From Patescibacteria group bacterium (GTDB taxonomy: Bacteria; Patescibacteriota; Patescibacteriia; UBA2591; JABMQE01): a stretch of 32,927 nt of DNA. Positions 10,581 to 30,736 of this stretch are shown here, in pieces; the first letter of the stretch is position 1, and every line of letters starts with the position of its first letter. The translations under genes were made by a program, and so were the position numbers. The notes under the pieces are model-generated. The model saw only the letters and a list, made by a program, of their open reading frames with translations. It had not been told where the DNA came from and made no database searches. Where the stretch lies: contig JAHIMF010000032.1 of assembly GCA_018896645.1 (NCBI GenBank), positions 1 to 32,927 on the forward strand, given 5' to 3'.

Positions 10581-10744
10581 TTAAAGAAACTAAGAAATAG
10601 AGAAATAAGAAATAAGGGAAAATATTTTAAATCTGGCGACTCAACCCTTTATTTCTTTATTTCTTGTTTCTCTATTTCTATTATAATTCTATCACATTTT
10701 AGCTGAAAAAGAAAAAACGACGGGTCAAAATCTGAACCGTCGTT
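10581..10744. repeat. Interspersed inverted-repeat element, copy 1
   Basis: The left end, TTAAAGAAACTAAGAAATAG (10581-10600), is identical to the left end of copy 2 at 12161. The left arm (to about 10617) and the right arm (10652-10682) are imperfect inverted complements built of AGAAATA-type units. The right end carries a perfect hairpin AACGACGG/CCGTCGTT (10716-10744) followed, on the minus strand, by T's, so it can act as a terminator. The right half resembles 12329-12400 in copy 2. MITE-like, but no terminal target duplication could be established. Confidence 0.6.
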
Positions 10745-11053
10745 GGTCTTGGGACATGTAATCGAGTGGGAGATCAGTCCTTCCTTTTTCCAAGCCAAGT
10801 TTTCAATTCGTTTGGCAAAAAGTTTGGAGATTATAGTGTCGTCAATCATTAGATAACCGTCTTGCGGTTTTCCAAAGGTTCTCAGGATGAAGTTTTGCAA
10901 GAGTATTTGCCAGCAAAAATTTTGTCCATTGAGAACCCTTGTAAGGCTATCATGACTACACTTGGCAATCTTGGACAATGACATACAACTAGCATTTTCA
11001 AAAACACACATTAAACCACTAAGGTAATTGATAACATTTTTAGGCAAAGTCAT
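10649..11053 (-). pseudogene. Transposase remnant (DDE type), N-terminal part only
   Basis: The ORF encodes 134 residues. The first 95 or so look like the N-terminus of an IS4/IS701-like DDE transposase: a helical DNA-binding part (LSKIAKCSHDSLTRVLNG) and YLMIDDTIISKLFAKRIENL, which contains the first catalytic aspartate strand. An intact transposase of this type is around 350-400 residues, so the remaining catalytic residues are missing. The C-terminal residues (SFFLFQLKCDRIIIEIEKQE) are not transposase sequence; they are read out of repeat copy 1, including its terminator hairpin at 10716-10744. The gene is therefore a truncated relic fused to the repeat. Exact IS family uncertain. Confidence 0.65.
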
Positions 11054-15494: not shown

Positions 15495-15522
15495 ATTATA
15501 CTTTAATTAAAATCTATATCAA
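15495..15522 (-). promoter_or_regulatory. Promoter of hicBA giving a leaderless transcript
   Basis: On the minus strand TTGATA (15522-15517) is followed after 16 bases by TATAAT (15500-15495). The expected start point, about 7 bases on, coincides with the A of the hicB ATG at 15488. The -35 box overlaps the last codons of gyrA. Confidence 0.75.
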
Positions 15523-18500
15523 ACCACGGTCACGCTCGCCACTTTATCACCCGCCTCTTTAAATCGCATCAGCTTGACTCCTTGAGTGGCTCGACCTAAC
15601 GAAGGAACGGACTTTAATGGCAAGCGAATCACTTGGCCTTTGTCAGAAATAATAACCATATCGCGCGACCCGTCTTCCTTTAACGTCTTATCGTCAATAA
15701 TCCAACCGCTAACCAACTTACCGGTCTTGGCGGTTATTTTGGCAGTTTTAATACCGCTGCCGCCCCGGCCTTGCAATTTATAGCCGGCTATTTTGCTCTT
15801 TTTGCCGAAACCCTTTTCACTAATTACGAAAATTTGAGCTGTCTTAAGGTCTTCTTTGCCTACTATCTGCATACTAATAATATCATCTTCCGGTTTTAAC
15901 CTAATGCCCCGGACGCCGGCAGCGCCCCGGCCCATAGCCCGAATCTCGGTCTCTTTGAAATGAATTGATTGGCCATGAGCACTCACTAAAACAATAGTGT
16001 CGCCGCCGCGAGAAGCCCTGACCCATTCCAGACGGTCGTCATTTTTAAGTTTTATGGCAATCAAACCACTGCTACGAACTTTTTCAAATGCATTGATATC
16101 AACCTTTTTAATAACACCGTTTTTAGTAACCATCAGCAGATATTTATAACCCTCAAGTTCAGCCAAAGCCAAAACTTCTGAAACCCGTTCTTCCGAAGAA
16201 ATTTGTAAAAAATTCACCAAGGCCTGGCCTTTAGCGGTCCGTGAGGCTGTGGGAACATCATAAGCTTTAAGCTGGAAAACTCGACCCCGAGTAGTGAAGA
16301 AAAGAATGTCAGAATGAGTGGTGGTTGTAAAAAATCTCTCCACCGTGTCTTCTTCTTTGGTGGTCAACCCGACTACGCCCTTGCCGCCGCGACCTTGGGT
16401 TTTAAATATATCCGGAGACATTCGCTTAATATAACCACCGCGGGTCATCATAATAATGGTTGACTCATTGGGGATTAAATCTTCTTGGGAAAACTTATTT
16501 ACGGCGCCGGCAACGATCTTAGTGCGACGCTCGTCCGCGTATTTTTCTCTAATTTCTAAGAGTTCTTTTTTAATAACACCTAAAATCCTTTTAGCGCTCT
16601 TAAGCAATGCTTCTAGCTCTTTAATTAATTTGTGCTTTTCTTTTAATTCTTGTTCAATGTTTAATCGCTCAAGATTGGCTAATTGGTGCAAACGCATTTC
16701 CAAAATCGCGTCTGTTTGTTTCTCGCTAAACTTAAATCGTTTCATTAGATTAACCTTGGCTACTTGCCGATCTCGAGATTTTTTAATAATTTTGATTACT
16801 GCATCAATGTTATCAATTGCTTTTTTCAATCCCTGCAAAATATGGGCTCGCTCCCGGGCGCGAGCTAAATCAAACTCAACTCGGCGCTGAACCACTTGCT
16901 CGCGATGTTTAATATATTCCTCAAGAATATTCTTTAAAGTTAATACTCGCGGCTGAATCCCGTCAATCAAAGCCAACATGTTAGCATGAAAAGACTCTTG
17001 CAATTGTGTTAAAGTGAACAAACGATTAAGAATCTTTTGCGGATAAGTGTCTTTTTTTAATTCAATTACTACGCGCACTCCGTCTTTGTTAGACTCGTCC
17101 CGCAGGTCTTTAATGCCGTCAATTTTTTTGTCTTTAACAAGACCGGCAATTTTTTCTAAAACGTTTGCTTTATTCACCTGATAAGGCACTTCGGTCACAA
17201 TAATATTAAAACTGCCCCCCTTAGCTTCAACAATTTCGGTTTTAGCGCGCATCACAATTGAGCCCTTGCCGGTGGTGTAGGCTTGTTTGATTTCCTTAAT
17301 ATTATAAATGATCCCGCCGGTGGGAAAATCCGGACCCTTAACGGCCTTCATCAACTCATCGATTTCGGCCTTTGGGTTATCAATCAATAAACAAATTCCA
17401 TCAATGATTTCCCCTAAATTATGCGGCGGGATATTAGTGGCCATGCCAACGGCAATACCCAAAGAGCCGTTTAGCAACAGGTTGGGCAGCTTGGCTGGTA
17501 ATACAGTTGGTTCTTGATGCGAGCCGTCATAATTAGGCCGAAAATCAACTGTGTTTTTTTCAATGTTATTGAGGAGCTCTTCGGCAGTAGCTTGGAGTTT
17601 AGACTCCGTATTATGATTAATAAAACCATTGGCGATAAATGAATGGCAAGGACTGTCTACCCGAATAGAATAGACGTTTTCTCTATTTTTTAATTTGTCA
17701 ACGTCTTTTATTTTGTTAAAGAAAAATTTATTTTTTAATAACCAATCAACCATCCTTTTATCTTGCGGCCTCAACGTCTTTACCAGTTGTGAATAATTTT
17801 TTTCTAAATTATTATATCTATCAAAATTATTCTTCTTTATAAAAGTACTACCATAATTAGACCGGAGATAAGTGTTTATATAAGGAATGTAATCAGTCTT
17901 ACTCATTCTACTCTGGCTAATTCTTTTGATACCCGCCAATGTCTCCCTTTTTCTCTGAGAAAAAAATCCTATTTCTTTGGCGAATAAAGCAATATTCTTA
18001 CAACCCGAGATTATCAATTTATAGCAACCATTTCTTTTGTCCTTATGCGGGGAGGTTGTCACTATGCCAAAGTTTAAGAGCACTGTTTTAAGCTGACTGA
18101 TAAGTTTTTGACTTTGGGAATTATAAGTTAACTCAATTGATTCGCCGCCATGACGTTTATCTTGATGATAAATAACAGAGCCGTCTCCCTCAAATAAACC
18201 AATCAAAAAATATTTGAGAGATTCTTTTTTAGAAAGCAACACAGTTTTAGGAATTTCCTTTCTATTGGATCGAGCTCGATTCAAACCAATGTTTTTCAAA
18301 AATTCCACAGCTTGCTTGGGGTAGATACTTAACCCATGGCAATCTCCGGCCATCTCTCTCTCATATAATTTAATACCCTTAAACTGAAAAATAGTTATGG
18401 CTTTTACTTTATTATAAAAGTCTAAATCTTGATTGTTAAATAATACTTGACCTTGATGGAAACTACCCTCAGAGACTAAGGCGCCAAGAAGAAAGGCTAA

Positions 18501-19394
18501 ATCTTTATTCATTTTCCTGGGCAAACCAATGTTTTTTCGTCTTGGAGTAATTTTTGGCCAATACTCCTTAAGTCCTGGATTGTTTTTACTAAAACAGGGA
18601 AAATTTCTGTTTATTAAAATAAAATCTTTTCTAGTGACCTCCTCAAGTAATTTCCATTTTAAATCAGGAAAGCCAAATTCATTAAGGACAAAACATAAAA
18701 TGGGATGATTATAAGTGCCTTTTAGCTTGTAGCCCTGTTCAGTGGTTATCTCAATAATATTATGTTTGCCAGAATTAAAAAATTTAGAGGCCTTAATTGA
18801 TTTGCCTTGATAGTTTAGAACTTTAAGATTTATATCGGCTTCTTCTTTGTCTGAAATTTCTCCTACGGGAACAATCCCACTATCTGCTAAAACCAATGCG
18901 TCTCCCGTAATACAATATCTCATAGCTGCCGCGCTATCACCATCCATAGAACCAAAATTCCCCTGGCCATTAATCAAAGGATAACGCATGGCAAAATCCT
19001 GAGCCATCCGCACCAAAGAATCATAAACCGCGATATCGCCATGAGGGTGATATTTGCCCAAAACCTCACCAACCACAGTGGCGCACTTGCGGAACTTGGC
19101 TTTAGGGGTTAAGCCCAAACGCCACATCGCATACAAAATCCGCCGATGGACTGGTTTTAAGCCATCACGAACGTCTGGCAACGCCCTCTGAACAATCACG
19201 CTCATGGCATAATCAAGATATGAAGACTGGACTTCATCAACAATAGATACCGGAGTTAGTTTATTGTGGATGTGTTCACTGCTGGCTCGGTTATTATCAT
19301 TTTGACTCTGCTTTGCCGGCCCGTTCTTTTGCTCTCGTTCTTTTCTTTTTGGTTTTTGAGAAAAACGAGGTTTTTTTTGATTATTGGTTTTCAT
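15519..19394 (-). CDS. gyrA: DNA gyrase subunit A precursor containing an intein
   Basis: GyrA cuts and rejoins DNA in the A2B2 gyrase that introduces negative supercoils using ATP. The 1291-residue precursor has a 45-residue charged extension, then the breakage-reunion domain ([32 protein letters not shown]). The catalytic tyrosine is Y160 in AAAMRY; the next residue begins the intein (161-595). The extein resumes with [13 protein letters not shown], so mature GyrA is 856 residues, a normal size. The C-terminal DNA-wrapping domain includes [12 protein letters not shown], the GyrA box that separates gyrase from topoisomerase IV ParC. In the quinolone-binding region the usual serine is isoleucine ([11 protein letters not shown]121), while D125 is kept. 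The gene starts 5 bases after the upstream small membrane-protein gene, so they are probably cotranscribed. gyrB is not in the window. Confidence 0.98.
17610..18914 (-). other. GyrA intein with LAGLIDADG homing endonuclease
   Basis: This is residues 161-595 of the gyrA product, 435 residues. Splicing block A is [13 protein letters not shown] with the nucleophile C161. Block B has GTYNHPIL with its histidine. The C-terminal blocks read [20 protein letters not shown] and end with H-N, followed by Thr as the +1 residue. Between them is a homing endonuclease with two dodecapeptide motifs: [12 protein letters not shown] (about 301-312, acidic E309) and [13 protein letters not shown] (about 395-407, acidic D404). 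Both acidic residues are present, so the endonuclease may be active. The insertion site, immediately after the gyrase active-site tyrosine, is the one used by the mycobacterial GyrA inteins. All splicing residues look intact. Confidence 0.95.
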
Positions 19395-23504: not shown

Positions 23505-23968
23505 TTGTTTTATGACATCTATCGAGCTATCCACCCGAGAGCCCTTGACAAAACTTCTCAAAATGTGATAAGCTTTTAAATCTATGATTCATACGAGCTC
23601 TTTAAGGGGTTTCTTTCCTTTTATCTTAGCCATAATCAGCCAAGTATATAAAAATGAGTAATTATTAAGTTGCAGATTACATTCATTTTGCGGCTAAGGT
23701 TAGCCCAAATTATAGATTAATTCTATATAAATTCTAATTTAAGCTAATAAAAATGACTGTTTAATTCTTGTTTTTGGCAATATAACAATTTTTAAGTTAT
23801 ATTACCTAAGGCAAGATGCCCTATAAAAACAGCTCATTACAATTTGGTTTTGGAAAAAAAGACAAACACAAATCAAAGCAAAGAAAGGAGGGAAAAGTAC
23901 GTTCTATCGGTACAAATTCTATGAGGTGGATTTTGGTTTAAACCTTTTTAACGGGGAGGGAGAACATC
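23505..23968 (+). promoter_or_regulatory. Long leader region of the NAD/kinase island with several palindromes
   Basis: No gene is visible. A possible promoter is TTGACA (23545-23550) with TAAGCT (23569-23574), spacer 18. Palindromes follow: GGCTAAGGTTAGCC (23692-23705), TATAGA/TCTATA (23711-23727) and AATATAAC/GTTATATT (23779-23803, 9-base spacer). They are operator-like and could serve a repressor. A strong ribosome-binding site, GGGGAGGG at 23953-23960, fixes the start of the next gene. A second AGGAGGG near 23887 has no start codon at a proper distance. Confidence 0.4.
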
Positions 23969-24787
23969 ATGAATAAGATCCATTTGCTTATCATTGATCC
24001 GCAGAATGATTTCTGCGACATTGATGGTGCCACGTTGCCAGTTAGCGGCGCTGACGAAGACATGAAGCGTGTTGCCGCCATAGTTAATCGTATCGGCTCA
24101 AAGCTGGAGGATATCCATGTTACCCTGGATAGTCATCGTTTAGTAGATATTGCCCACCCGACTTGGTGGAGGGATCAGAACGGAGAACAACCAACGCCCT
24201 ATACGATAATCTCGGCTGACGATATTGAAAACGGCATCTGGACGCCCAGAGATCCGGATTCTCGCAAGCGTACTTTAGAATATGCTCGGCAACTGGAAGC
24301 AACCGGCAAGTATCAAATTTGTGTTTGGCCACCACACTGCCTTATTGGCACCTGGGGCCACAATGTCCAGTCTGATGTTAATAACGCGCTGCAACGATGG
24401 TCTGGTAAAGAGTTTGCTGTGGTTGACTATGTGACCAAGGGATCCAATCCTTGGACAGAGCATTATGGCGCTATGCAAGCAGAAGTGCCTGATCCCACTG
24501 ATCCAACCACGGCATTGAATACTGACTTTCTCGCCATGTTGTCGGAAGCAGATATAGTAATTGTAGCCGGTGAAGCGTTAAGCCACTGCGTGAAGGAAAC
24601 TGTTACGCAGATTGCTGATAACATTGGTGATGAGCATGTCAGAAAATTCCATATCCTGACAGATTGCTCCAGCCCGGTTGCGGCAGTTCCTGGTGGTCCA
24701 AATTTTCCGATCATTGCCCAGGATTGGCTCAGGGAGATGCAAGGACGCGGAATGTCTTTGACTACTTCTGTTGAATTTTTGACCTGA
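23969..24787 (+). CDS. Nicotinamidase-type cysteine hydrolase (isochorismatase superfamily)
   Basis: Likely reaction: nicotinamide + water to nicotinate + ammonia, the first step of NAD salvage. Active-site residues are in the order expected of PncA: D10 (LLIIDPQNDF), metal ligands D54 and H56 (VTLDSH), H123 (WPPHCLIGTWG), catalytic K157 (VTKGSNP) and nucleophile C207 (GEALSHCVKET). The length, 272 residues, exceeds E. coli PncA (about 213) because of insertions before H123 and near 170-190, so related amidase specificities cannot be excluded. Supporting the nicotinamidase call is the nicotinate phosphoribosyltransferase gene 3.7 kb downstream on the same strand. The gene has a strong Shine-Dalgarno site, unlike most neighbours outside the island, suggesting transfer. 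Confidence 0.85.
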   Translation: MNKIHLLIIDPQNDFCDIDGATLPVSGADEDMKRVAAIVNRIGSKLEDIHVTLDSHRLVDIAHPTWWRDQNGEQPTPYTIISADDIENGIWTPRDPDSRKRTLEYARQLEATGKYQICVWPPHCLIGTWGHNVQSDVNNALQRWSGKEFAVVDYVTKGSNPWTEHYGAMQAEVPDPTDPTTALNTDFLAMLSEADIVIVAGEALSHCVKETVTQIADNIGDEHVRKFHILTDCSSPVAAVPGGPNFPIIAQDWLREMQGRGMSLTTSVEFLT

Positions 24788-24852
24788 TCATTTCTTGCTC
24801 CAAAAACGGTCAAATAACTTGGACTACTAACCTACCTTAAAAGGAGGATGAC

Positions 24853-25632
24853 ATGCCACGTCTTATGGCTGGTGATACAATGGAAATTGGCAACATTAGT
24901 GGAATGCAGGGATTCAAGTTTTCCGGTGTACGAACCGAGCATCTTGGTGCCACCGAATATACTGTGGTTACTGTTGCGGTTGACGAAACCGGTTCGATTC
25001 AGGAATTCCAGAACGACCTGCTTAAATGCTTGATTGCTGCGGTTGAATCCTGCAAAAAGTCACCGCGTTCGGATAACCTCCTGTTGCGCGTTATTAAATT
25101 CTCCACCGCCTTTTCTGGCGGCGTGAAAGAATTGCATGGATTCAAACCGCTGGCTGACATCGATCCGCAGAACGACTATGCACAGTTGTGGCCAGGCGGT
25201 CAAACCCCGCTTTATGACGCTACCTTTTCTTCGGTTGGAGCAACGATCGCTTATGCTGAAAAACTGATGGCAGATGATTTTCTGGTCAACGGGATCGTTT
25301 TCGTGATTACAGATGGATTAGAATACCCGTTGCCGCCCAACAATCCCTCATCAGCTACCCCAGCTATGATTAAGAGAGAGGTTGAAAAAGCTATCGTTGG
25401 TGAAAATATCGAATCACTGGTAACTGTGTTGATCGGTATCAATGCTGGCCAATATTTGCAGGAACTCACAACCTTCCAGCAAAACGCCGGCATTGACAAA
25501 TACATTGATGCGGGCGATGCGACCAAAGGCAAGCTAGCGAAATTGGCTGAATTTGTATCACAGTCGGTATCAAGCCAATCCCAAGCCCTGGGAACCGGAG
25601 GTCCGAGCCAGAACATCTCTGCAAAGATATAG
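24853..25632 (+). CDS. vWA-domain protein, TerY-like
   Basis: The 259-residue protein is a von Willebrand factor A domain with a nearly complete metal-ion-dependent adhesion site: D44-E-T46-G-S48 (variant of DxSxS), T118 in GGQTPLYDA, and D154 in VFVITDG. There is no signal peptide, so it is cytoplasmic. The layout vWA, then PP2C, then kinase is the TerY-P triad described for tellurium-resistance-associated stress systems, where the vWA protein is thought to be an assembly or substrate partner of the kinase and phosphatase. It has an AGGAGG ribosome-binding site at 24842-24847 and a terminator-like hairpin after its stop, which may lower expression of the following genes. The actual ligand or partner is unknown. 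Confidence 0.88.
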   Translation: MPRLMAGDTMEIGNISGMQGFKFSGVRTEHLGATEYTVVTVAVDETGSIQEFQNDLLKCLIAAVESCKKSPRSDNLLLRVIKFSTAFSGGVKELHGFKPLADIDPQNDYAQLWPGGQTPLYDATFSSVGATIAYAEKLMADDFLVNGIVFVITDGLEYPLPPNNPSSATPAMIKREVEKAIVGENIESLVTVLIGINAGQYLQELTTFQQNAGIDKYIDAGDATKGKLAKLAEFVSQSVSSQSQALGTGGPSQNISAKI

Positions 25633-25651
25633 TCGAGGCGAAATAGCGTTA

Positions 25652-25690
25652 ATGGGAAGATGATGGACAAATCCGTTGTCTTCCCGTTTT
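25652..25690 (+). terminator. Terminator or attenuator between vWA and PP2C genes
   Basis: GGGAAGA (25654-25660) pairs with TCTTCCC (25679-25685), extended by an A-T and a wobble pair, followed by GTTTTTATTTT. It lies inside the presumed operon and so may make the downstream phosphatase and kinase genes less abundant than the vWA gene. Confidence 0.75.
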
Positions 25691-25709
25691 TATTTTGGAG
25701 GTGAAAATT

Positions 25710-26606
25710 ATGATTCAACTACATACTGATCATTATTTCCATATCGGAAACAAACATCTGATCACTGGGAAGCCTTGCCAAGATTATGCTATCTCAGATG
25801 TACATAATAACGTTGCTTTGGCAGTAGTCTCAGATGGGTGTTCAACTGGTAGACATACAGATGTTGGGTCTAGAATTCTCGCCTTATCTACAGCAACTGC
25901 TATCCGCGAACATTGGACTATTAGCTGTGATGCGCTTGGCGAAGCTGTTCCACAAGAAATCAGTTTACGTCAAAGAATAGTGTTGTCTGGAACGCGCCAG
26001 GCACTGGGATTACAGCTGGACGATATGCTGGCAACCTGTGTTTATGCCTACGTCTCACCATCAGGTGGCTTCGTTCATGTACAGGGAGATGGTGTTGTCG
26101 CTTTTAAATATCGGAGTGGAGGCATTGATATGTTCCGATTGGAGTGGGAAGACAATATCCCCTATTATCCAGCATACTATGAAGGGCGACTACCCAAATT
26201 TATTGAAAATCATGGCGGTGATTTGAATGCTTTACGATTAAGCCGAGAGAACTGTGCGTGGACACCTAATGAGGGATTCACGACATCCGACACAGATAGT
26301 TACACTCTTAGTGGAGGAATTCGGGGCATTACGATTGACTTGCCCGCGGAACTCTTGTCTCAAGACCTTGAATTCATAGCTGTCTTTTCTGATGGCGTAG
26401 CGCAGATTGAAAAACTTGACTGGAAAAAAGCTGTTGTGATATTTATGGCGTTCAAAAACAAGATTGGCGAATTTGCAAAACGCCGAATGATCCGCGGGAT
26501 TAAAGATGCGCAAAAAGACGGCAAAGGCCTTCTCGATGATATTGCATATGCGGTTATTCGGGTAGAGCAATCCGAAACCGAAGGGGCCCAAAATGCAAAA
26601 GACTAA
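25710..26606 (+). CDS. PP2C-type protein phosphatase
   Basis: The 298-residue protein removes phosphate from Ser/Thr residues, presumably those set by the kinase next door. Motifs of the metal-dependent PP2C fold: GKPCQDYA (D25), AVVSDGCSTGRHTDVGSR (D42), QGDGVVAF (126-130), VFSDGVAQIE, and a C-terminal DDIAYAVI. These supply the metal-binding aspartates. I chose ATG 25710 because GGAGGTG at 25697-25703 is at the proper distance; the upstream non-ATG start at 25695 would lie in that site. It overlaps the kinase gene by 14 bases, showing translational coupling. There is no membrane segment. Confidence 0.9.
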   Translation: MIQLHTDHYFHIGNKHLITGKPCQDYAISDVHNNVALAVVSDGCSTGRHTDVGSRILALSTATAIREHWTISCDALGEAVPQEISLRQRIVLSGTRQALGLQLDDMLATCVYAYVSPSGGFVHVQGDGVVAFKYRSGGIDMFRLEWEDNIPYYPAYYEGRLPKFIENHGGDLNALRLSRENCAWTPNEGFTTSDTDSYTLSGGIRGITIDLPAELLSQDLEFIAVFSDGVAQIEKLDWKKAVVIFMAFKNKIGEFAKRRMIRGIKDAQKDGKGLLDDIAYAVIRVEQSETEGAQNAKD

Positions 26607-28347
26607 AGGCAATCTTAGTGTTGTCCTAGATGGACGTGGGCCATTAACACTTCGGCCCAATGACTATCAAGCAACTGGGGGAGAAGGTTCAGTCTATAAA
26701 GCCTCTGGGACAGCGATAAAAATTTTCCACGAACAAAAAAGGGTTCTGTGGAATAATGTCGATGGAAAAGTAGCTTTCTTCCGAGCGAATCCTCATCCTT
26801 ATGTTGTTTTTCCCTTGGGACGGGTTATGACATCTTCGGGAGAAACGATTGGCTACTACATGAAGTTCGTAAATGGAGAACCGATTGCGAGGGTTTTTAC
26901 TAATGACTTTCGCAAAAGAACAGGATTTAGTAATGATAAGGCTTCGCTGTTGATAGATCGGATGCGCGACATAGTAATGTATGCGCACGAGAGAGACGCC
27001 TTACTTATTGACGCAAATGAGCTTGGTTATTTTGTGGTTAACAACAATTCTCAAGAGCCTGAGCCCAGAATTATAGATGTTGACTGTTGGGTTATTGACG
27101 ACAAATGGCCTCCTAGTTGTCCTATAATGCCTTCTATACGAGATTGGCATGTAAGACAAGGTAAACAGTGGAACGAAGGAACGGACTGGTTTGCTTGGGG
27201 GGTGGTAACTTTCCAAGTATATACTGGTATTCATCCATACAAAGGAACCCTAATTGGCTATAAACGGAATGAATTAGAAAGAAGGATGCGAGATAACGCA
27301 TCAGTATTCACAAATAATGTTCGGCTCAACAAAGCTGTTCGGGACTTCTCGTGCATCCCTGGTCATTTGCTTGACTGGTACGTAGCGACCTTTCAAAGCG
27401 GAGAACGGACAATCCCGCCTTCACCCTTTGAGACCGGCGTTGCTACAACTCAAGTTGCTCGAGTACTACACGCTATTACAACCGCGACTGGAATACTAGT
27501 TTTCGACAAACTGCTTGGCAAAATAGGGGTTCAGGTTATTCGATTTTTCCCTTGTGGTGTCGCTTTGTTAGAATCTGGTAAGCTCATAGACGTTTCTAAG
27601 AGTCGGCAAATCGGCATAGCCCAATCTCGCGATTGTGAGATAGTGAAAGTACAAAATGGCTGGCTAAAGACGGATCTTGAGGATGGGAATATTAGATTCT
27701 TCCATATCAATGAGGTAAGCCTGGATGAAAAGGAAATGACGTTGAATCTCAATGGTCATCAATTGCTTCGTTATGGAAACCGTTTGTTTGTAGTGACGGA
27801 CAGGGGATTAACAGAGATGACCCTGAAAGTTTTAGGTAAGCCGATCCTGTCTGTTGGCCAAACGTGGGGGGTGATGATAAACTCTACTCGCTGGTTTGAT
27901 GGAGTTGGTATTCAGGATACTATGGGAGCAACGTATGTTATTGCACCCTTTAGTGACAATTCTTGCGCTCAAATTCGTGTCCGAGAACTCGATGGGTTGA
28001 AGCCAATCATGGCCAAAGCCGGCAATAGATTTATTACAGTGATTGCCTTGGATGGTAATGGCGTTTATCAAAAAATTGAATTGACAATGGATCGAGGATA
28101 CAGTAGCTATAAGGTGTGGCAAGAAGCTACTGATAGCCCGGATTTGAATATCGCCATTTTACCTAAGGGCGTATGCGCCACGATCGTCAATGATGGAGAG
28201 CTGGATATTTTTGTGCCAACGTCTGGTACGTTCAACAAGATTCAAGATAAGTATGTTTTAACAGATATGGCTCTTGCTAACTGGGAAAACAAAGTTGTGT
28301 ATATTCAAAATGGCGAGCTATGGAGTGTAAGGATGTCTGGCAAATAA
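26593..28347 (+). CDS. Ser/Thr-kinase-like protein of the TerY-P type with C-terminal beta-repeat domain
   Basis: Kinase features in the 584 residues: glycine loop GGEGSVY (29-35), ATP-binding lysine K43 (TAIKIF), catalytic loop LLIDANELGYFVV with D140 and N142 in place of HRDLKxxN, a metal-binding D162-V-D164 in place of DFG (IIDVDCW), and GTDWFAWGVVTFQVYTGIHP of the C-lobe. The variant catalytic loop and the DVD motif are typical of kinases in TerY-P triads. Residues from about 290 to the end look like repeated beta strands, possibly a propeller, which could bind a partner or ligand. The start overlaps the PP2C gene. The gene ends at a strong terminator. Kinase activity is likely because K, D and the metal-binding D are present. 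Confidence 0.87.
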   Translation: MQKTKGNLSVVLDGRGPLTLRPNDYQATGGEGSVYKASGTAIKIFHEQKRVLWNNVDGKVAFFRANPHPYVVFPLGRVMTSSGETIGYYMKFVNGEPIARVFTNDFRKRTGFSNDKASLLIDRMRDIVMYAHERDALLIDANELGYFVVNNNSQEPEPRIIDVDCWVIDDKWPPSCPIMPSIRDWHVRQGKQWNEGTDWFAWGVVTFQVYTGIHPYKGTLIGYKRNELERRMRDNASVFTNNVRLNKAVRDFSCIPGHLLDWYVATFQSGERTIPPSPFETGVATTQVARVLHAITTATGILVFDKLLGKIGVQVIRFFPCGVALLESGKLIDVSKSRQIGIAQSRDCEIVKVQNGWLKTDLEDGNIRFFHINEVSLDEKEMTLNLNGHQLLRYGNRLFVVTDRGLTEMTLKVLGKPILSVGQTWGVMINSTRWFDGVGIQDTMGATYVIAPFSDNSCAQIRVRELDGLKPIMAKAGNRFITVIALDGNGVYQKIELTMDRGYSSYKVWQEATDSPDLNIAILPKGVCATIVNDGELDIFVPTSGTFNKIQDKYVLTDMALANWENKVVYIQNGELWSVRMSGK

Positions 28348-28368
28348 TTGATCTTTCGTCTTGGAAAC

Positions 28369-28402
28369 CGGAGGGAAATCGCCAGGTGGTGATTTCCCTC
28401 CG
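28369..28402 (+). terminator. Terminator of the phosphatase-kinase unit
   Basis: CGGAGGGAAATC (28369-28380) and GATTTCCCTCCG (28391-28402) form a perfect 12-bp stem with a 10-base loop, followed by CATCTTTTTC. Confidence 0.88.
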
Positions 28403-28427
28403 CATCTTTTTCGAAGCCCCAGAAAAT

Positions 28428-28479
28428 TGTAACTAAAAATAATTTAGTTACAGATTTCTTGCCTTAATTTAGATTAAGG
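28428..28479 (+). promoter_or_regulatory. Two operator-like palindromes before the nicotinate phosphoribosyltransferase gene
   Basis: TGTAACTAAA (28428-28437) is the exact complement of TTTAGTTACA (28443-28452). CCTTAAT (28462-28468) is that of ATTAAGG (28473-28479). Both lie in the 130-base gap after a terminator and before the gene, a natural place for a repressor such as an NAD-metabolism regulator. They are not a close match to any site I can name. Confidence 0.4.
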
Positions 28480-28533
28480 TAGGCGCACATTCAAATAATA
28501 TATCATCTATCATCTTGAACAAAGGAGGCAGAG

Positions 28534-29760
28534 ATGCCGATTATCCAATCGTTGCTTGATTTAGACCAGTATAAATTAACAATGGGTGGATTTGTTCGGA
28601 AGCGCTACCCCGACGTGCCAGTAAAGTATGGTTTCACTAATAGGACAACTAGTATTTTTCTGTCACAACATATTGATGAAGGTAGGCTACGGGAAGAGTT
28701 TGACCATGCCCGAACCCTATCCTTCATGGATGATGAACTTGACTATGTAGGGAATATGACCGTCAACAATAAGTCAATGTTCTCGTCTGCATTTATTGAA
28801 TTCTTAAGGAACTACTATTTGCCAGAGTACGACATAGAGAAGGTCGACGATACTTATAGGATTGAGTTTACCGGTCCATGGAAAGAAACTATTTACTGGG
28901 AAACAATCGCCCTTTCAATCATTAACGAGCTTTTCGGTGAAGCTTGGATTAAAGATCAAGGGCTATCGCTGGATCGGGTAGTTGGGAGGGGTTGCCGTCG
29001 ACTTAGAGAAAAAATCGCAATCCTCAAGAAATATCCTGGTATTAAGTTTATAGAGTTTGGCACTCGCCGGCGCTTTACTGGCTGGTGGCAAGGTTATGTC
29101 TTAAGAGTCTTGCTTGAGGAAATTCCAAACCAAGTATTGGGGACATCCAATGTGCTGCTTGCTAAAAAATTGGGGATCCCCGCAATGGGCACCCAGGCCC
29201 ATGAGCTCTTTATGATTATGTCTGGCGTTATGCGTGGGGGTGATGAAAAAATACGCGCCTCCCAAAATAGGGTTTTGGAAGAATGGTGGGATGAATATGG
29301 GTATGACTTGTCAATTGCTCTTCCTGATACCTTTGGCTCAGATTTCTTTCTCCAAACCACGCCAGAGCAAATAGCCCAAGAATGGAAGGGGTTTCGGCAG
29401 GACTCTGGAGACCCAAAGGAGTTTGGTGAAAAAGCAATCAAGTTCTACGAATCATATGGGGTGAATCCTAAAACCAAGTTGGTTGTCTTCAGCGACGGTC
29501 TGGATATATATAAAATCGTGGAGCTCTATAATCACTTCCAGGGAAGGGTTATTCCATCGTTTGGTTGGGGAACCAATCTTACTAACGACCTCGGGCTACC
29601 GACCTTATCACTTGTTGTTAAAGCGATTGGAGCTTGTGGTTGTGGTCTGGTTAAGCTCTCTGATAACTTGGCTAAGGCCATCGGTAAACCAGAAGATATT
29701 GAGCTTTACAAGCGGATCTTCGGTTATACAGGGACAATGTACGAAAAGGTAAGTTATTAG
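28534..29760 (+). CDS. pncB: Nicotinate phosphoribosyltransferase
   Basis: It makes nicotinate mononucleotide from nicotinate and PRPP, usually with ATP hydrolysis. The 408-residue protein aligns with E. coli PncB along its whole length: LLDLDQYKLTMGG at the start, GPWKETIYWE, EFGTRRRF (173-181 region), MGTQAHE with the phosphorylatable H223, RQDSGDPKEFGEKAI, FSDGLDIYK, SFGWGTNLTNDLG and KLSDN. All catalytic and PRPP-binding residues appear to be in place. A strong AAAGGAGG site precedes the ATG. With the hydrolase at 23969 it forms a two-step route from nicotinamide to NaMN; NadD and NadE, needed to reach NAD, are not in the window. Confidence 0.95.
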   Translation: MPIIQSLLDLDQYKLTMGGFVRKRYPDVPVKYGFTNRTTSIFLSQHIDEGRLREEFDHARTLSFMDDELDYVGNMTVNNKSMFSSAFIEFLRNYYLPEYDIEKVDDTYRIEFTGPWKETIYWETIALSIINELFGEAWIKDQGLSLDRVVGRGCRRLREKIAILKKYPGIKFIEFGTRRRFTGWWQGYVLRVLLEEIPNQVLGTSNVLLAKKLGIPAMGTQAHELFMIMSGVMRGGDEKIRASQNRVLEEWWDEYGYDLSIALPDTFGSDFFLQTTPEQIAQEWKGFRQDSGDPKEFGEKAIKFYESYGVNPKTKLVVFSDGLDIYKIVELYNHFQGRVIPSFGWGTNLTNDLGLPTLSLVVKAIGACGCGLVKLSDNLAKAIGKPEDIELYKRIFGYTGTMYEKVSY

Positions 29761-29767
29761 TTTTTGC

Positions 29768-29798
29768 TGGTGGAGGGAAGCGCTCTTTCTCTCCACCA
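29768..29798 (+). terminator. Terminator of the pncB gene
   Basis: TGGTGGAG (29768-29775) pairs with CTCCACCA (29791-29798), followed by TTCTTTTCT. Confidence 0.85.
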
Positions 29799-29822
29799 TT
29801 CTTTTCTCAAATCATTCAATAC

Positions 29823-29853
29823 TATAATATATTACATAATGTATTACGTAATA
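29823..29853 (+). promoter_or_regulatory. Possible promoter -10 and palindrome before the methyltransferase gene
   Basis: TATAAT at 29823-29828 could be a -10 box, though no good -35 is seen. TATTACGTAATA (29842-29853) is a perfect 12-bp palindrome, preceded by another TATTAC at 29830-29835. This is suggestive of a repressor site. Confidence 0.35.
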
Positions 29854-29924
29854 AACGTAAATGATTTAAACAAGGAGAAAATTCGTTGACAATTCAATAA
29901 CACCAGCCACAAAGGAGGAGCCTC

Positions 29925-30560
29925 GTGGAACAATGGAAGCCAGAAACATGGAAAAGCTCCTACATAGAGCAATTCCAGAAACTGCGATGTTTTGAGGATG
30001 TTTGGAATATAGTATCACCAATAAAAAAAGATTCCAAAGAAATTTCCGAGTCCATGAGCGTTGTCGTGCGAGTGCGAAATCTGGTCCTGCCTGAACCTGG
30101 GCGGTATACAGTGTATGACATCTGCGCTGGAAATGGTTTAACCGGGATTATTATCGCTTTTTTACTGCCGGTAAAATCAGTGATTGCTGTGGATATTAGG
30201 CGCCGCGACAGGCCCTGGGAATTGGCGCGAGGATTCTCCTATCAAGAGCGCGACCTCCGCGAGCTTACACCGGCTTTTTTTGAAAAGGATTCGATTATAG
30301 TGGGTGTCCACGCCTGTGGGATTCTGTCGCAAAAAATCATTGAACTCTACAACACAAGCAGGGCCAAGCATCTTATTCTGATGCCTTGTTGTAACGGCAA
30401 AATAGATGGGATGCTGCAGTTTATGGGAGATACGTGCGGCAATTATGCGGCTTGGTCCCTGCAATTGGGGCTGTTGTGTAAAGGCAAGGTGCGAATAAAA
30501 CAAGATAAAAAAATTATATCACCCAAAAATCTCGTAATCACCGCTCATAAGGAAAGATAA
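29925..30560 (+). CDS. SAM-dependent methyltransferase (class I, HACG/MPCC type)
   Basis: The 211-residue protein has the Rossmann SAM-binding motif YDICAGNGLTG (64-74), the acidic end of strand 2 AVD (88-90), then GVHACG (127-132) and LMPCCNG (152-158). The pair of cysteine-containing motifs is typical of the Methyltransf_32 (METTL25/Trm13-like) group, some of which modify RNA; the substrate here is unknown. The start is GTG at 29925 with AAAGGAGGAG at 29911-29920. The context is the end of the NAD/kinase island; its role there is open, but methyl transfer to nicotinamide or nicotinate would be one testable idea. A very short ORF (30565-30624, 19 codons) follows and is not annotated as a gene. 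Confidence 0.8.
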   Translation: MEQWKPETWKSSYIEQFQKLRCFEDVWNIVSPIKKDSKEISESMSVVVRVRNLVLPEPGRYTVYDICAGNGLTGIIIAFLLPVKSVIAVDIRRRDRPWELARGFSYQERDLRELTPAFFEKDSIIVGVHACGILSQKIIELYNTSRAKHLILMPCCNGKIDGMLQFMGDTCGNYAAWSLQLGLLCKGKVRIKQDKKIISPKNLVITAHKER

Positions 30561-30683
30561 AATTATGTTTCTTAAGCCGCCAAGCGAAATAGTTAAACGA
30601 TTAGCAGAACCCGCCACAAAGTAGAGCCGCTCCATGGCATGGATTGCGAGACTCTAAGGGGGGGCTTATTGGAATGATGCCTT

Positions 30684-30736
30684 GACCCCACCCAACATCT
30701 ACTAAATAATAGTAGTAAGGGCGGGGTCTTTTTTTT
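30684..30736 (+). terminator. Terminator at the end of the island
   Basis: GACCCCACCC (30684-30693) pairs with GGGCGGGGTC (30719-30728) with one mismatch; inside, CTACT/AGTAG extends the hairpin. Eight T's follow. The stretch between the methyltransferase gene and this hairpin holds nothing else that I can support. Confidence 0.93.

Follow-up and report, generated by a model that had tools for sequence, protein, structure and literature searches.

Fixed-order linkage of a nicotinamidase-like gene with a TerY-P-like gene triad suggests a phosphorylation switch on NAD salvage in Patescibacteria and phage-classed contigs

We found that the gene for a divergent nicotinamidase-like cysteine hydrolase (Nam) recurs in distant genomes together with genes for a von Willebrand factor A (vWA) protein, a PP2C phosphatase and a Ser/Thr kinase, and this fixed-order linkage suggests that NAD recycling is under a phosphorylation switch not described before. 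On balance we think it likely that these genes form an NAD salvage module of the nicotinamide-based (Preiss-Handler) type that has its own protein-phosphorylation switch, a reading that draws on features present in the sequences themselves, i.e. the linkage, the gene order, the conserved active sites, the neighbours and a palindrome in Patescibacteria. The literature searched (open-licence PubMed Central) contained no description of a nicotinamidase combined with such a triad.

In the proposed mechanism Nam would deamidate nicotinamide to nicotinate and nicotinate phosphoribosyltransferase (NAPRT) would convert nicotinate to NaMN, after which NMNAT and NadE would complete NAD in the complete versions of the module, and NrtR would match transcription to the NAD state. 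The kinase with its putative beta-propeller, the PP2C phosphatase and the vWA protein, probably an adaptor, would form a TerY-P-like triad. We infer that this triad regulates Nam, most likely by setting the activity or assembly of Nam, the candidate phosphorylation target (or of a Nam-vWA complex), through reversible phosphorylation. In Patescibacteria the switch would tune nicotinamide scavenging, and in phages it may serve counter-defence, where the virus would rebuild NAD from the nicotinamide released by NAD-destroying defences of the host.

Gene order in the window and in other genomes

The window (the whole 32,927-nt stretch analysed, contig JAHIMF010000032.1 of a Patescibacteria group bacterium, to which all coordinates refer) carries six consecutive genes on the plus strand. 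These encode Nam (272 aa, 23969..24787, recognised by conserved residues and AlphaFold2 fold), a TerY-like vWA protein (259 aa, 24853..25632, with an intact MIDAS in the family alignment), the PP2C phosphatase (303 aa, 25695..26606, PF13672, 57.5 bits), the Ser/Thr kinase with an all-beta C-terminal domain (26593..28347, from predicted fold and aligned residues), an NAPRT of the PncB type (408 aa, 28534..29760) and a class I methyltransferase (29925..30560, PF13679, 42 bits). All six reading frames of the order described in an earlier note on this DNA were confirmed as open on this strand, as was the overlap of exactly 14 bases between the PP2C and kinase genes (26593-26606). The NAPRT scored above the cut-offs of both TIGR01514 (323 bits, cut-off 270) and PRK05321 (409 bits) and was the sole NAPRTase match found in the window genome. 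The methyltransferase, which the earlier note had included in the gene set, has to be left out, as it was found near Nam in no other scanned locus; it is a mere neighbour outside the conserved unit.

A consensus scan of the window, in which hairpin counts were just slightly above those of shuffled sequences, placed a hairpin with a T-rich tail, a possible terminator or attenuator, in the gap between the vWA and PP2C genes (25651..25688, plus strand) and, between the kinase and NAPRT genes, a hairpin of 15 pairs with a T run after it (28369..28402, plus strand). With hairpins in these two gaps the window genes may not share a single transcript, and NAPRT may form a transcript separate from that of the kinase. 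Upstream of Nam there is a weak sigma-70-like promoter match (23774..23803, plus strand), of a kind no commoner than in shuffled sequences, and no Rfam or tRNA match was found in the window.

The four genes Nam, vWA, PP2C and kinase were present together in 86 of the 173 Nam-bearing loci examined, with identical order and strand in 80 of these 86. The loci come from Patescibacteria, Bradyrhizobium and phage-classed contigs, which reach lengths of 0.6 Mb. The vWA gene was on the strand of Nam in all loci that had both (96/96), and the gap was shorter than 150 bases in 71 of them. Searches anchored on the vWA protein and on the kinase were run without Nam, albeit with profiles built from Nam loci, and found Nam within 10 kb in 66/66 and 67/70 distinct viral loci, respectively. 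Among 380 genomes of the phylum there were four strong vWA matches, all adjoining Nam. The recurrence of the gene order is thus far beyond chance. The earlier note had linked the triad to the salvage genes and had named absence of the gene order from any other genome as a refuting outcome; the order was found in many distant genomes, in support of that link. In one locus (L260) an apparent Nam-vWA fusion was rejected as a functional protein, since in its frame Nam is cut down to an N-terminal part that lacks the catalytic Lys and Cys; given this truncation and the adjoining transposon-like (IS200/IS605-type) genes we read it as a deletion.

In 43 cellular loci, Betaproteobacteria among them, Nam and NAPRT occurred together and the triad was missing; since the pairs in Betaproteobacteria manage without it, the triad is not needed for salvage as such. 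That the triad is almost never found without Nam, while Nam and NAPRT are often found without the triad, favours a triad that acts either on Nam or by way of it.

The triad and its relation to known systems

In the vWA family the MIDAS residues D44, S48, T118 and D154 are invariant and the C-terminal tail is Ser-rich, with conserved S236, S238, S240 and S243; the window protein alone had no Pfam match, and 12 of 38 family members matched PF00092. The metal-binding residues of the PP2C phosphatase (D30, D47, G48, D233 and D282) are conserved. The window kinase also had no Pfam match. In the AlphaFold2 model it folds as a protein kinase over about residues 1-280, followed by an all-beta domain of about 28 strands (294-581), and the best PDB matches of the model were LRRK2 and LRRK1, in which a kinase is followed by a WD40 propeller. 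The C-terminal domain therefore looks beta-propeller-like in the model. The window kinase retains K43, H132, D140 and D162, with a DVD motif at 162-164, and has a glycine (G145) at the position of the catalytic-loop Asn that is found in 65 of the 66 aligned kinases.

Adjacent vWA, PP2C and Ser/Thr kinase genes are what the unit shares with the TerY-P triad (including CoCoNuT-linked triads), together with a MIDAS-containing vWA protein and PP2C and kinase families that look active. The C-terminus of the TerY-P kinase is a zinc ribbon, or an OB fold in defence versions (PMC11090510), whereas that of the kinase described here is beta-propeller-like, and the triad is tied to NAD salvage genes instead of Ter or restriction genes. 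The identification of a TerY-P triad in the earlier note thus holds for the three adjacent genes and not for the kinase type, and we regard the triad as a TerY-P-like variant. Its observation that TerD-family genes are lacking was borne out, as a Pfam scan of 20 window proteins gave no TerD-family or other Ter gene. We know of no substrates of TerY-P-like kinase/phosphatase/vWA triads, and if our reading is true such triads gain a concrete candidate target.

A further relative is the YegI-PphC-YegL set of Escherichia coli K-12, which has no adjoining nicotinamidase or NAPRT gene. In profile comparisons YegI is homologous to the family kinase (2e-26), although the part after its kinase domain was not matched by the family profile, and PphC is homologous to the family PP2C (3e-11). 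YegL gave a weak match to the family vWA protein (E 7e-4, probability 26%) and has, by eye, a similar Ser-rich tail.

Phage-classed contigs

Ribosomal protein L2 was absent from all 30 phage-classed records, which argues against cellular contigs for the group and is proof for no single record. A viral hallmark match above cut-off was obtained in 7 of the 30, in a search with three Pfam families that is too narrow. An NAPRT-family gene was present in 22 of the 30, with weak matches (17-26 bits) to divergent proteins of 450-530 aa in seven of these. The check for phage or defence neighbours proposed in the earlier note turned up NAD/ADP-ribose genes (NADAR and PARP) and RNA ligase genes in these neighbourhoods, in keeping with a conflict setting.

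NAD depletion is among the main weapons of bacterial antiphage defence, and the known phage answers enter via ADP-ribose (NARP1) or nicotinamide phosphoribosyltransferase (NARP2). The module resembles NARP1, NARP2 and the NAD salvage pathway of phage KVP40 in that NAD rebuilding would be phage-encoded, and differs in its entry via nicotinamidase and NAPRT and in its kinase/phosphatase switch; the literature searched made no mention of such an entry or switch for phage NAD pathways. We tentatively propose that one route from nicotinamide to NAD, under a kinase-propeller/phosphatase/vWA switch that acts on the nicotinamidase, is common to huge phages and Patescibacteria. This route could represent a third kind of NAD reconstitution in phages, with direct phospho-control of salvage in bacteria and their viruses. 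If so, a widespread nicotinamidase route with built-in phosphorylation control would be a further phage answer to NAD depletion.

The same neighbours could also be explained by a triad that senses stress or phage and has Nam and NAPRT as its output, so that a signal leads to phosphorylation and salvage refills NAD. Defence contexts have been reported for TerY-P-like triads (PMC11090510). Nevertheless, the triad clade is almost always found with Nam, unlike a free-standing sensor that borrows an output, and PADLOC gave no match for the window triad proteins; on 39 family kinases it reported PD-T4-6, mad6 and MkoA models only, which we read as generic kinase matches. We consider a sensor of this kind unlikely.

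NAD neighbours, NrtR and a candidate operator

The commonest further neighbours were NAPRT (79 loci), Nudix proteins (57 loci) and NadE (43 loci). Among the Nudix proteins are NrtR, which has a winged-helix domain, and an NMNAT-Nudix protein, and the phosphoribosyltransferases examined scored best on nicotinate models. By sequence-based assignment, Nam and the neighbours NrtR, NAPRT, NadE and NMNAT make up a complete nicotinamide-to-NAD route. The order NrtR/Nudix-Nam-vWA-PP2C-Kin-NAPRT-NadE is complete in L024 and L026, and L027 has the same arrangement, save that a 145-aa gene precedes NAPRT and NadE is followed by a weak NMNAT-like match; an NrtR gene is present in the relatives L024, L028 and others. 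NrtR-regulated NAD salvage operons comprise NrtR, PncA-like, PncB, NadE and NMNAT-Nudix genes, and the same enzymes and NrtR are found in Patescibacterial relatives of the window and in triad-free Betaproteobacterial loci, the difference being the added triad.

We also found a palindrome, AGTGT-N7-ACACT (e.g. TATAGTGTATATACTACACTATA), that occurs 20 times in the 261 kb of sequence from Patescibacterial loci (0.36 times in shuffled sequences); 19 of the sites are intergenic, and most precede Nam, PP2C, NAPRT or NadE. It is a candidate NAD operator in Patescibacteria, to which NrtR probably binds. The window has no exact or one-mismatch copy, and two-mismatch matches were rejected as chance-level. 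A match to the NrtR winged helix was likewise lacking in the window genome, and family searches of that genome found no NadE or NadD, the candidates being MnmA and HldE as judged by sequence. The route may therefore stop at NaMN there, or the genes may lie in gaps between the 92 contigs. Without NrtR, operator, NadE and NadD and with Gly145 in its kinase, the window copy appears reduced and may be a poor model of the working system.

An unfinished salvage route in the window genome would suit a different role, in which Nam, gated by the triad, removes nicotinamide as a product inhibitor of NAD-consuming enzymes and does not feed NAD synthesis. PARP is inhibited by nicotinamide, and PARP genes lie near some phage copies. 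This role is improbable, even more so than that of a sensor, as NAPRT and NadE often lie nearby and have the same upstream palindrome in Patescibacteria.

The nicotinamidase-like protein

We infer nicotinamidase activity of Nam from its conserved residues and predicted fold. The catalytic residues D10, K157 and C207 and the metal site D54, H56 and H123 are invariant across the aligned family, and the AlphaFold2 model (pLDDT 96) had nicotinamidases as all 11 of its best PDB folds. The scores of Nam are under the curated cut-offs (21.2 bits against 27 for PF00857 and 29.4 against 174 for PRK11609), so we call it nicotinamidase-like, a divergent subfamily that present database cut-offs would miss. 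These low scores, and a longer distance than in PncA from the metal-binding H56 to the WPxHC motif, would also be expected of an amidase acting on another small molecule, but the invariant catalytic and metal residues, the nearest structures and the NAD genes constantly beside Nam make such an activity very unlikely.

Chance neighbourhood or simple hitch-hiking on mobile DNA would agree with the rarity of the four-gene unit in Patescibacteria (about 1% of the sampled genomes), as expected of transferred DNA, but is contradicted already by the anchored viral searches and the order-and-strand counts and is hardly credible, as the order is maintained among proteins that are 25-50% identical and in differing surroundings, and a second order, PP2C-Kin-Nam-vWA, retains the same four genes.

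Recurrence of the Nam-vWA-PP2C-kinase module

The earlier note had proposed a search for its gene order in other genomes, and this order was found for four of the six genes, Nam (encoding a nicotinamidase-like hydrolase) and the triad of vWA, PP2C and kinase. An alignment of Nam recovered 579 relatives from 84,980 species genomes and 146 from the viral collection IMG/VR, of which 80 were taken in each case. All four genes were present in 86 of the 173 Nam loci examined, and 80 of these 86 had the order Nam-vWA-PP2C-kinase on a single strand. By source the four-gene loci made up 67 of 84 viral-collection and 19 of 89 cellular loci, counts that include near-copy contigs and Bradyrhizobium in both collections; with near copies removed, 64 of 125 Nam sequences were triad-linked. 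Nam and vWA lay on one strand in 96 of 96 loci (median gap 36 bases).

Scans anchored on vWA or on the kinase were run without requiring Nam, using profiles derived from Nam-linked sequences, so that the result covers this triad clade and not TerY-P triads generally. Nam was found within 10 kb in 66/66 distinct vWA-anchored and 67/70 distinct kinase-anchored loci; one of the three exceptions sits at a contig edge and in another (L334, on the same contig as L120) Nam lies just beyond the scanned stretch. The 380 genomes of the phylum gave four strong vWA matches, all adjoining Nam. The strongest inference is one of asymmetry: Nam occurs without the triad, but the triad hardly ever without Nam.

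In a quick Nam tree (many open forks, midpoint root only) the window Nam fell within a group of 12 rows (support 100) that also held other Patescibacteria, a contig of 411 kb from the viral collection (L101) and sequences from Alphaproteobacteria, including those of Bradyrhizobium type. Its nearest relative was the Nam of an unclassified bacterial MAG (L021), followed by Nams from Patescibacterial MAGs (Uhrbacteria, Lloydbacteria, Parcubacteria, Moraniibacteriota and Niyogibacteria), and on this basis the source organism is probably itself a Patescibacterium. Triad-linked Nams were scattered across the deeper branches, and the nesting of a triad-free Betaproteobacterial group among them suggests that the triad was lost there. 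One phage-classed contig (L260:9617-12370) has a truncated Nam joined to vWA in a single reading frame, probably as the result of a deletion; transposon-like genes of the IS200/IS605 type lie next to it.

Protein identities

The NAPRT gene (encoding nicotinate phosphoribosyltransferase) was assigned unambiguously. Nam scores under the Pfam and NCBIfam cut-offs; its six catalytic and metal residues are all invariant in a 53-sequence alignment, its AlphaFold2 model is confident (pLDDT 96) and the eleven best PDB folds for this model are all nicotinamidases. Its residues and predicted fold make Nam a divergent representative of the nicotinamidase fold. In the vWA protein the MIDAS residues are invariant and the Ser-rich tail at the C terminus is conserved, and PP2C retains its metal-binding residues. 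The window kinase retains Lys43, His132, Asp140 and Asp162. C-terminal to the kinase domain, the predicted structure has an all-beta domain of ~28 strands, and the best fold matches spanning both domains were LRRK2 and LRRK1, in which a kinase is followed by a WD40 propeller. TerY-P is described as consisting of vWA, PP2C and a kinase bearing a zinc ribbon or OB fold (PMC11090510); the present kinase has the all-beta domain instead. The kinase- and PP2C-family profiles also matched YegI and PphC of E. coli, respectively.

Association with NAD salvage

The commonest neighbours beyond the four genes were NAPRT (79 loci), Nudix proteins (57) and NadE (43). Those Nudix proteins of ~225-250 aa that were checked contain the NrtR winged-helix domain, and a type of ~345 aa is a bifunctional NMNAT-Nudix. 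Two loci (L024 and L026) have the complete arrangement Nudix-Nam-vWA-PP2C-Kin-NAPRT-NadE; in L027 it is accompanied by a further short gene and a weak NMNAT-like match. In 43 cellular loci, mostly of Betaproteobacteria, Nam adjoins NAPRT without the triad. An NAPRT-family gene was present somewhere in 22 of 30 phage-classed records, 15 of the 22 being strong matches.

The triad could be a sensor in its own right that has borrowed its output; this reading is less favoured, as the triad hardly ever occurs without Nam and the neighbours are NAD genes. The same asymmetry and neighbours favour a switch on nicotinamide salvage. In such a switch Nam and vWA would be the first candidates for putative phosphorylation targets, given their constant linkage. 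The neighbours of the module, among which the earlier note had proposed to check for phage or defence genes, include NADAR and PARP genes; with such neighbours, and by likeness to NARP pathways (PMC12774641, PMC13232231), a phage-borne module might serve in counter-defence.

The combination of nicotinamidase and triad, for which the earlier note could name no description, was not found in the literature searched. Nicotinamidase and PP2C are absent from surveys of jumbo-phage and viral NAD genes (PMC7824862, PMC9503650). A huge-phage paper describes one phage with four genes leading from nicotinamide to NAD, in passages that make no mention of the triad (PMC10747093).

Several individual loci had further neighbours. 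PARP-like genes (PF00644, PF02877) adjoin the module in three phage-classed contigs (L144, L145 and L146). The Bradyrhizobium copies (L029/L102 and L030/L103) lie within regions classed as viral by IMG/VR, and a gene for a HerA-like helicase is close by. On a 0.8 Mb Variovorax plasmid (L011, NZ_LR594667.1) Nam-vWA sits beside Nudix, macro-domain, NAD kinase, AlkB and RNase HII genes, the matching kinase being ~21 kb away. A 925 kb plasmid record of Vibrio vulnificus (L012, NZ_CP015514.1) has a distant Nam homologue in whose vicinity lie genes for an RNA ligase, a potassium channel and a member of the TerD family; no other link to TerD was noticed.

A putative NrtR operator in Patescibacteria

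Several Patescibacteria have the palindrome TAGTGTA-N5-TACACTA between NrtR and Nam. The 261 kb of Patescibacterial loci covered (L016-L028) contain 20 copies of the palindrome core, AGTGT-N7-ACACT, compared to a mean of 0.36 and at most 2 in shuffled sequence. All but one of the sites (19/20) are intergenic, usually just before Nam, PP2C (where the gene order starts with it), NAPRT or NadE. On sequence grounds the core is a candidate NrtR operator of Patescibacteria; NrtR sites vary from lineage to lineage (PMC6800001).

The copy in the window

The six genes described earlier (23505-30736) were confirmed, all on the forward strand, as was the overlap of 14 bases between PP2C and kinase. The genome comprises 1.33 Mb in 92 contigs (96% complete), with the window as contig 32, and the cluster is chromosomal, since a gene for ribosomal protein S1 lies upstream and that for FtsH downstream. 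Neither NrtR nor the AGTGT-N7-ACACT palindrome was found in the window, nor NadE in its cluster; NadD and NadE were likewise not found elsewhere in the 92-contig assembly, where the candidate matches proved to be MnmA and HldE. Codon 145 of the window kinase encodes Gly, whereas the other 65 kinases in the alignment of 66 have the catalytic-loop Asn at this position, and judged by this substitution the kinase may be weakened or a pseudokinase. We read these losses, in a fragmented assembly, together with Gly145 as reduction of the module. One hairpin separates vWA from PP2C and another separates kinase from NAPRT, and given both of these the cluster may form more than one transcript.

Elsewhere in the window, a short ORF (10649-11053) with a weak match to PF13546 (DDE transposase domain) is perhaps a transposon remnant, and DNA gyrase subunit A contains an intein with a LAGLIDADG domain (15519-19394).
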